Positions 16,913 to 26,919 of a DNA stretch of 33,369 nucleotides are shown here, piece by piece; position 1 is the first letter of the stretch, and the number at the start of each line of letters is the position of its first letter. Source of the DNA: Campylobacteraceae bacterium. Its GTDB lineage: Bacteria > Campylobacterota > Campylobacteria > Campylobacterales > JALSKU01. The stretch spans positions 1 to 33,369 of the forward strand of contig JALWUQ010000087.1 in the NCBI GenBank assembly GCA_026993075.1, in the 5' to 3' direction. The position numbers were made by a program, and so were the translations under genes. A model generated the notes under the pieces. The model did not search any database. It worked only from the letters and a program-made list of their open reading frames with translations, and had not been told where the DNA came from.

Positions 16913-25643
<8,731 letters not shown>

Positions 25644-25677
25644 AATATAGATAATATTTTTAATATCTATCCTTGCA

Positions 25678-25706
25678 CACTATAATGAGCAAAGCTCGTT
25701 ATAGTG
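25678..25706 (+). terminator. Hairpin downstream of rpoC
   Basis: CACTATAATGAGC and GCTCGTTATAGTG form a 13-bp stem with one T-G wobble around an AAA loop, 34 nt after the rpoC stop. No T-run follows; a GGGAC/GTCCC stem comes next. It probably marks the end of the rpoBC transcript or protects its 3' end. Confidence 0.5.
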
Positions 25707-25774
25707 GCAGGGACTAAAGTCCCTACAACCCTTTTGAAGCTTACGAAAAGTAAAACTTTTCGAGAAAAAAGTGC

Positions 25775-25862
25775 GTAAGGTCAGAGATATAATTCTATTT
25801 GGAAAATATGGCAGTATGCTTCTTGGAAGTAAGAACTTTTAACATATAGCATCTGACCTTAC
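25775..25862. repeat. 11-bp inverted repeat in the str leader
   Basis: GTAAGGTCAGA (25775-25785) and TCTGACCTTAC (25852-25862) are perfect inverted copies enclosing 66 nt. The enclosed part contains a small CTTC/GAAG hairpin and a 13-codon frame. It could be a long-stem RNA element or the ends of a dispersed repeat. Confidence 0.55.
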
Positions 25863-26009
25863 AGACTAAACATAATGAAATCTCAAATATTTCTTTCAAG
25901 CAAATCTACTTAAAAATTACTTAATTTAATAAAACTAAAAGCTATAAAAAGATAGAATATCGTCTATTTTTGGAGAACTCCATAAATAAAATCAGAAAAA
26001 GGAAAAGAT

Positions 26010-26381
26010 GTGCCTACCATCAATCAATTGGTAAAAAGAGAGAGAAGAAGAGTGATTAAAAAGTCAAAATCACCCGCACTTGATAAATGTCCTCAAAGAA
26101 GAGGTGTTTGTACAAGAGTTTACACTACAACTCCTAAAAAACCTAACTCAGCTTTAAGAAAAGTTGCTAAAGTTAGACTAACTAGTGGATTTGAGGTTAT
26201 TAGCTATATAGGCGGCGAGGGTCATAATCTACAAGAACACTCTATTGTTTTAGTTCGTGGCGGAAGAGTAAAAGATTTACCTGGTGTCAAGTATCATATA
26301 GTAAGAGGTGCTTTAGATGCTGCTGGAGTTGCCAATAGAAAAGTTGCTAGAAGTAAATACGGAACTAAAAAACCAAAATAA
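26010..26381 (+). CDS. rpsL: Ribosomal protein S12
   Basis: A 123-aa decoding-centre protein. [37 protein letters not shown] and [18 protein letters not shown] are diagnostic. Lys43 and Lys88 are both wild type, so no streptomycin-resistance change is seen at these sites. The start is GTG at 26010, after AAAAAGGA (25995-26002). An ATG at 26008 overlaps it (ATGTG) but is in another frame. First gene of the rpsL-rpsG-fusA operon. Confidence 0.97.
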
Positions 26382-26451
26382 CAAATAGCTAAACAGGTTG
26401 AGCTTTAAATCAGGCTTATACTTGAGTAAATTTAAAATTGAAGGAAGATAA

Positions 26452-26919
<468 letters not shown>

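Follow-up and report, generated by a model that had tools for sequence, protein, structure and literature searches.

The string of hairpins between rpoC and rpsL is mainly the interior of one copy of a short, gene-less mobile element, and it does not have the look of a switch controlling the str operon. We place this element, a MITE, at positions 25666-25785 of the window (the whole stretch of 33,369 nucleotides that was analysed), downstream of rpoC and ahead of the native rpsL promoter, and we infer that it was mobilised in trans by an IS701-type transposase; to this explanation as a whole we assign a probability of about 0.93. There is good support for regarding the element as a new family of MITEs, mobile elements of a kind already known, with an ordinary mechanism. 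The features of the region are as follows.

21096-25643, plus strand: rpoC, from the list of open reading frames, named from the preliminary description and gene order
25647-25670, plus strand: first hairpin of the preliminary description, across the insertion border, mostly native DNA behind rpoC plus the first bases of the MITE TIR (z = -1.0)
25666-25785, plus strand: MITE copy, 120 bp from TIR to TIR, from repeat matches, TIR pairs and an alignment of it with 66 further copies (mean column identity 84%)
25666-25680, plus strand: left TIR, degenerate, TCTATCCTTGCACAC against the consensus WCTGACCTTACGCAC, from sequence, TIR pairing and alignment
25678-25706, plus strand: internal hairpin 1, CACTATAATGAGC-AAA-GCTCGTTATAGTG, from the fold and the inverted-repeat listing
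25709-25724, plus strand: internal hairpin 2, AGGGACT-AA-AGTCCCT, often imperfect elsewhere, from the inverted-repeat listing and a single fold
25744-25762, plus strand: internal hairpin 3, CGAAAAGT-AAA-ACTTTTCG, from the inverted-repeat listing and a single fold
25771-25785, plus strand: right TIR, GTGCGTAAGGTCAGA, exact (0 mismatches)
25786-25851, no strand assigned: 66-bp interval between the MITE and a second TIR, with unconvincing similarity to three MITE classes (depending on class and strand, 17 to 254 of 300 shuffles reach the same score)
25852 to about 25904, plus strand: remnant of the left end of a second element, with the greatest likeness to the class of about 260 bp, TIR (2 mismatches) plus about 35 bp
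about 25905-26009, plus strand: native DNA upstream of rpsL, judged by eye to hold the probable promoter and leader, AAGCTATAAAAAGATARAATAYYGTCTATTTTTGG...AAAGGAAAAGAT, kept in sister genomes (gap comparison)
26010-26381, plus strand: rpsL (S12), GTG start, from the list of open reading frames, with a match at E <= 1e-20 in 79 of 80 genomes of the order

The rpoC-rpsL gap and its hairpins

The five inverted repeats of the preliminary description are all real and lie no more than a few bases from the positions given there, and the inverted-repeat listing recovers them at 25645-25670 (two overlapping listings), 25678-25706, 25704-25729, 25744-25762 and 25770-25785/25852-25867. The region 25644-25870 folds at -68.6 kcal/mol, compared with -40.1 +/- 4.0 kcal/mol in 200 dinucleotide shuffles (z = -7.2, none of the 200 equally stable). 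Three of the hairpins were folded singly with DNA parameters against 200 shuffles each: 25744-25762 is clear (z = -4.0, 4/200 at least as stable), 25709-25724 is weak (z = -2.3, 8/200), and 25644-25670 is not significant (z = -1.0, 31/200), so that the first hairpin as originally described (25647-25670) exists as an inverted repeat but folds no better than chance. The long pairing of 25775-25785 with 25852-25862 is likewise present, but its arms are the TIRs of two separate elements, and it arises from the truncated second element next to the MITE. The interval first described, 25644-25870, does not coincide with the actual repeat unit, 25666-25785. No closed reading frame of at least 80 amino acids in the list overlaps this unit, which is thus short and without a transposase gene. 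Its flanks, TAATA on the left and GATAT on the right, form no target duplication.

The remnant TIR of the second element occupies 25852-25866. Compared with the start of a 260-bp element, the segment 25852-25904 reaches a score of 38 (0/300 shuffles as high), and compared with the 120-bp class a score of 29 (1/300), the TIR supplying much of the score in both comparisons, and no right end was seen after this left-end remnant. The second element would have inserted beside the MITE and later been truncated. A second 120-bp copy in 25786-25851, suspected by eye, was rejected on the shuffles listed above.

The product of 26010-26381 we take to be S12, following the preliminary description. The gap in front of it could be read in seven of the nine genomes of the genus (G001 and G002 gave no rpsL match) and measures 366 bp in the present genome, 120 in G006, 133 in G004, 134 in G007, 148 in G008, 206 in G005 and 371 in G003. 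The element is absent from the gaps of G004, G006, G007 and G008, and its TIRs are absent from that of G005. The G003 gap holds a decayed copy of another TIR element that belongs to the G003 genome itself (L179), with a local score of 133 against at most 34 in 300 shuffles; against the other six gaps L179 scores 20-36. This implies that the gap was struck independently in two species. By comparison with G008, native sequence resumes at about 25905 with a conserved AAGCTATAAAAAGATARAATA...GTCTATTTTTGG block, followed by AAAGGAAAAGAT before the start codon. Among 31 loci upstream of rpsL (30 callable), where the closest frame longer than 100 codons was taken as the upstream gene, which outside the genus need not be rpoC, only the present genome carries these TIRs in the gap (at most 3 mismatches). 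Because the sister gaps are empty and G003 holds a different element, the insertion is lineage-specific and not an str leader.

Several other features of this gap were observed. In G004 and G006 (L216, L217) the DNA immediately after the rpoC stop forms pairs with that at the presumed rpsL promoter (ATAGACGGTATT...AATACCGTCTATTTTT), and in these two genomes the 3' arm of an rpoC terminator may overlap the start of the str leader. In the present genome imperfect arms flank the insertion (25647-25658 and 25956-25971), and the joined flanks do not fold likewise. A small leader hairpin, GGAG-AA-CTCC, lies before rpsL at 25972-25981, and the rpsL leader hairpin has paired changes in sister genomes, GGATA...TATCC in G006 and GGAGAATTCC in G007 (by eye, within this genus). 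The G005 gap (L219) contains GAGCTTA tandem repeats with a matching inverted set. Upstream, the rpoB and rpoC frames overlap by 47 bp (21096-21142) in mechanical calls.

The repeat family and its distribution

A search of the genome's own assembly (1.9 Mb, 88 contigs) with 25644-26009 returned 76 matches, at least 41 of them at E <= 3.4e-23, the window included; the copy count is a lower bound, 40 of 165 first-look candidates having been scored. The strong matches mostly span about 25671-25784, and short extra matches on the opposite strand indicate that the start of the repeat is the reverse complement of its end. The consensus TIR is 15 bp, (A/T)CTGACCTTACGCAC, and the end pattern GTGCGTAAGGTCAGA occurs at 118 sites in the genome with at most 3 mismatches, versus 13 for the reversed control. 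The AGGGACT palindrome, AGGGACTAAAGTCCCT, is found at one place within the window, and the earlier impression that it belongs to a dispersed repeat is borne out by these matches. The search against the same genome and its relatives, which had been proposed as a check, also found copies in G002. The preliminary description had reserved chance folding of AT-rich DNA for a unique sequence that relatives do not conserve; the region is neither unique nor unconserved, and the hairpin string is therefore not chance folding.

Elements with WCTGACCTTACGCAC and GTGCGTAAGGTCAGW ends measure 48-51, 65-66, 78-83, 100, 118-124, 183 and 259-269 bp in the stretches fetched from this genome. Over all fetched genomes we obtained 114 distinct elements, accepted with at most 4 mismatches per end and 6 in total, so that a few may be chance pairs; 70 of the 114 are 117-126 bp long, both outer bases counted. 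When the outer base is treated as the element's own, 46 of the 114 have an exact 5-bp target duplication, compared with 2.44 on average and never more than 8 in 500 re-pairings of the flanks, and each of the five flank positions agrees between left and right in 72-84 elements. Duplications of 4 and 6 bases number 7/114 and 8/114, above the shuffled maxima of 6 and 4, and the counts for 2 and 3 bases equal chance. The length is thus not perfectly clean, and some duplications may differ in length or be offset by one base. The favoured 5-bp duplications are AT-rich (TAATA 9, TAAAA 7). An exact 5-bp duplication is missing from the remaining 68 elements, the window copy among them; age or rearrangement of a copy would be expected to have this effect. 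Among 36 aligned copies from the genome the median identity is 85% (630 pairs, range 70-97%), and the best match of the window copy has 89% identity.

For gene context we relied on rough frame calls made without annotation, with gap length uncontrolled and 21 of the 114 elements left out as lying near locus ends; on this footing 87 of 93 classifiable elements are intergenic, 4 lie in reading frames and 2 are unclear, and the median distance to flanking gene ends is 12 nt for 3' ends and 49.5 nt for 5' ends. The family has the marks by which a MITE is recognised, namely TIRs at both ends, a target duplication and many dispersed copies, and an autonomous element with the same ends is present in another genome of the order (L177). 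The suggestion of a mobile repeat family is thus strongly upheld: the copies are dispersed, they have their TIRs in common, target sites are duplicated over 5 bp, and an element with a transposase gene is bounded by the same TIR. Pairs of TIRs 400-2300 bp apart in the present genome were considered as autonomous elements and read as compound or chance pairs, and a pair 2048 bp apart in another genome (G363:C100) proved to be two separate short elements.

Longer elements (L063, L049, L062, L064, L181, L184 and L194, about 259-269 bp, and L179, 165 bp) have the same TIRs and interiors that differ largely across genera. By eye, the longer elements carry motifs such as CTAACGAAG/CTTCGTTAG and CCCGAAGGG between long hairpins, in what we take to be a loose resemblance to integron attC cores; in eight loci with the longer classes no Rfam family reached its gathering score. 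TIRs also lie within about 160 bp of contig ends in the present assembly (G000), for example C6, C9, C12, C24, C49, C53, C65 and C83, which suggests that the repeat may break the assembly there.

Within the genus (nine genomes), a 121-nt consensus matches in the present genome and in G002, which belongs to the same genus, at least 40 times each, and in none of the seven others. When the flanks of 52 elements of the present genome were compared with those of 18 from G002, two pairs matched on both sides (L003/L171 and L028/L104), so that some insertions are older than the split between the two genomes; the other sampled G002 elements had no partner by flanks among the 52. Across the order the exact 14-mer CTGACCTTACGCAC is found in 47 of 398 genomes, up to 43 times in one genome, and the reversed control in 0/398. 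A contig scan for exact TIR pairs gave eight stretches, seven in MAGs assigned to Campylobacterota, Campylobacterales or Campylobacteraceae (three WFMT01) and one, with a differing interior, in a "bacterium" MAG. A 120-bp element with exact TIRs, a different interior and, by eye, no 5-bp duplication was seen in a 3.6-Mb "bacterium" MAG (JAMOQH010000143.1, 7440-7559; L136/L165). Near-identical elements with the same flanks occur in L171 (G002:C272) and L178 (G363:C100), genomes assigned to different families; one of the two contigs may be misbinned, and the co-occurrence of MITE and transposase in G363 needs caution. The plasmid and phage collections contain no DNA match to 25660-25870. In the titles and opening parts of abstracts of the open-licence literature on Campylobacterota or Epsilonproteobacteria and on IS701 or ISAba11 MITEs we found no description of this family, which may be described elsewhere.

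A probable parent transposon

Locus L177, from genome G192, carries both TIRs exactly at 1362-2463, 1102 bp end to end, enclosing a 350-aa reading frame that matches the NCBIfam IS701 transposase model NF049921 (329.8 bits, cut-off 250) and the Pfam models DDE_5 (43.3 bits, cut-off 27) and DDE_Tnp_1 (33.1 bits, cut-off 23). The flanks of this IS, TTATA and TCCTA, form no duplication. The transposase or pieces of it were found in 11 of 398 genomes of the order (12 matches). Besides that in G192 there are 11 matches, of which seven (L200, L202, L203, L205, L206, L207 and L209) have a TIR with at most 2 mismatches overlapping them or within about 105 bp, and four (L201, L204, L208 and L210) have none, L208 and L210 having one 4-mismatch site each. 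At L207 a C-terminal piece of the transposase lies between two TIRs with TAATA on each side, which indicates an internally deleted IS with a 5-bp duplication. The exact 14-mer is present in 8 of the 11 transposase genomes versus 39 of the 387 others (Fisher P = 2.7e-6), an excess that is partly due to the IS's own ends.

The MITE was probably moved by the IS701-type transposase of related bacteria, as the sequence of its ends suggests. The likeness to the IS701 elements of NF049921 (transpos_IS701_2) is that the same TIR bounds a 350-aa transposase of that family; the difference is that the window element has no transposase and, by eye, has the TIR alone in common with the IS, not the sub-terminal sequence. 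No IS701-type transposase was found in the present assembly (best match 29% identity over 72 aa), and a search of the nine genomes of the genus gave weak fragments in G000 and G008 only. Because its own assembly carries no such transposase, the element seems to be stranded in this genome, barring loss of the gene at a contig break. In the mechanism that we propose, an IS701/ISAba11-like transposase would once have bound the TIRs in trans and cut the element out, the excised element would have been joined to AT-rich targets cut with a 5-bp stagger, often immediately behind gene ends, and the transposase would afterwards have been lost from this lineage. The internal hairpins would be structural baggage, or might aid the pairing of the two ends, rather than serve as an RNA that controls str.

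To assess the pairing of the internal hairpins, 75 oriented copies were found and 67 aligned, eight having been excluded by hand before the counts, mostly for deviant length (L003:2172, L004:2173, L128, L129, L139, L140, L171:1987 and L178:2990); two aligned rows, L171:3916 and L178:1043, are near-identical. In the named helices 90.3% of cells are paired, compared with 89.7% when partners are shuffled (0/500 as high) and 23-43% when they are slid. The inner ten pairs of hairpin 1 are paired in 89.9% of cells and six pairs of hairpin 3 in 97%. One pair of hairpin 2 is broken in 35 of the 67 copies, and two pairs of hairpin 1 are lost in 21 and 23. Cells changed on both sides number 28 versus 15.6 in shuffles (0/500), a count inflated by the kinship of copies; 13 are in hairpin 1 (11 at one pair, where UA becomes CG in 11/67 copies), 10 in the TIRs and 5 in hairpin 2. 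The covariation score is 0.096 versus 0.087 (0/500 as high), and neither the pairs with changes on both sides (9 versus 8.6) nor the pair types (38 versus 39.0) exceed the shuffles. Strong covariation as evidence of a functional RNA was set aside, the signal being modest only, with an RNAalifold consensus of -1.14 kcal/mol. This is the pattern expected if palindromes are repaired or passed on as palindromes, and a functional RNA gains little support from it.

Alternative explanations and known systems

The preliminary description had offered a regulatory leader of the str operon, and in that form the hairpins would be a leader or attenuator RNA, either sensing a ribosomal protein or governing read-through from rpoC. 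The position directly upstream of rpsL, the strong folding of 25644-25870, the paired changes in hairpin 1, and the both-side cells and covariation score above all 500 shuffles would suit it. The proposal is nonetheless very improbable, and it fails on comparison with relatives: four sister gaps are without the element and a fifth holds a different one, so that the element is not conserved at the orthologous position in the gaps read within the genus, and the same 120-bp unit stands at dozens of unrelated loci in both orientations. The native rpsL upstream region is intact downstream of the insertion, hairpins 1 and 2 lose pairs, the number of pairs with paired changes stays at shuffle level, RNAalifold finds almost no consensus fold, and at gathering score Rfam recognises nothing in the hairpin region and no family in the window besides five tRNAs. 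A palindromic repeat of REP/BIME type, spread by a RAYT (TnpA-REP) or by a hairpin-recognising Y1 transposase like that of IS200/IS605, would also be rich in hairpins, mostly intergenic and present in dozens of copies. Such HUH transposition is not known to produce TIRs or target duplications, however, and clear 15-bp TIRs, 5-bp duplications and a DDE transposase bounded by the same TIR make it extremely improbable.

Two further readings accept the mobile element and add a function or a history. The MITE may have been exapted, replacing a lost rpoC terminator or supplying an outward promoter: folding predicts stems after rpoC in the gaps of G003, G004, G006, G007 and G008, the joined native flanks of the present genome fold weakly (-11.5 kcal/mol), and TATAAT lies within hairpin 1. 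Against this, a terminator scan gave no plus-strand terminator in 25400-26500, and no sigma-70-like promoter was found inside the element or in the consensus-like copy L020, by a scan that requires a -35 box and would therefore miss promoters with a -10 box only; we consider exaptation quite unlikely. The broader reading is that one IS701/ISAba11-like lineage bred several unrelated structured, gene-less elements across the families of the order, with a preference for gene ends and with hairpins kept by selection. Its classes would be the three-hairpin 120-bp element, 260-270 bp classes with long internal hairpins, a 165-bp class and TIR-only palindromes of about 50 bp, and selection might, for example, favour hairpins that aid single-strand transposition or that insulate transcripts and so spare the host. 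This joint claim is unlikely as it stands.

With the hairpins read as a MITE insertion, an apparent regulatory puzzle upstream of the str operon becomes an insertion that is absent from sister genomes, and the case cautions against naming such hairpins leader RNAs. The family, abundant in Campylobacterota, is moderately useful as annotation and probably accounts for part of the contig breaks in such assemblies. Since empty and occupied sites can be compared between sisters, they offer a natural test of the effect of MITE insertions behind essential genes on transcription.

Small dispersed repeats such as Correia/NEMIS, ERIC and RUP are about 100-130 bp long, palindromic and intergenic, and are described from other hosts with other sequences; the present element is like them in size, palindromes and intergenic position. 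Among IS elements, classical IS701 makes a 4-bp YTAR duplication, whereas the present family has 5 bp in 46/114 elements and 4 bp in 7/114. ISAba11 is assigned to the IS701 family. An Acinetobacter schindleri plasmid carries a relative of the transposase with 54.7% identity; its TIR is ACTGATGTTACGCAG, and TATTT can be seen by eye on either side. A distant relative, from an A. lwoffii plasmid, shows the TIR core CTTACGCAC at one of its ends and CTTACGCAT at the opposite one, with ends TAGGACTTACGCAT/C. Among 30 of the 412 records, plasmid transposases annotated as ISAba11 family are only 22-23% identical to the 350-aa one. ISAba11 insertions are reported to have AT-rich 5-bp direct repeats, TATAG and ATTTA (PMC7885321), and the likeness to the parent IS lies in these repeats and a size of about 1.1 kb. 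Given the 5-bp duplications, we liken the parent to ISAba11 and not to classical IS701. A close parallel in kind is MITEAba12 of Acinetobacter, which is reported to be a short, gene-less element at many sites with a parent IS proposed as the source of transposase (PMC6382973). The present element resembles it in all these respects; it is set apart, by description, in that the proposed parent of MITEAba12 is ISAba12, and in its own three internal hairpins, several size classes and Campylobacterota host.
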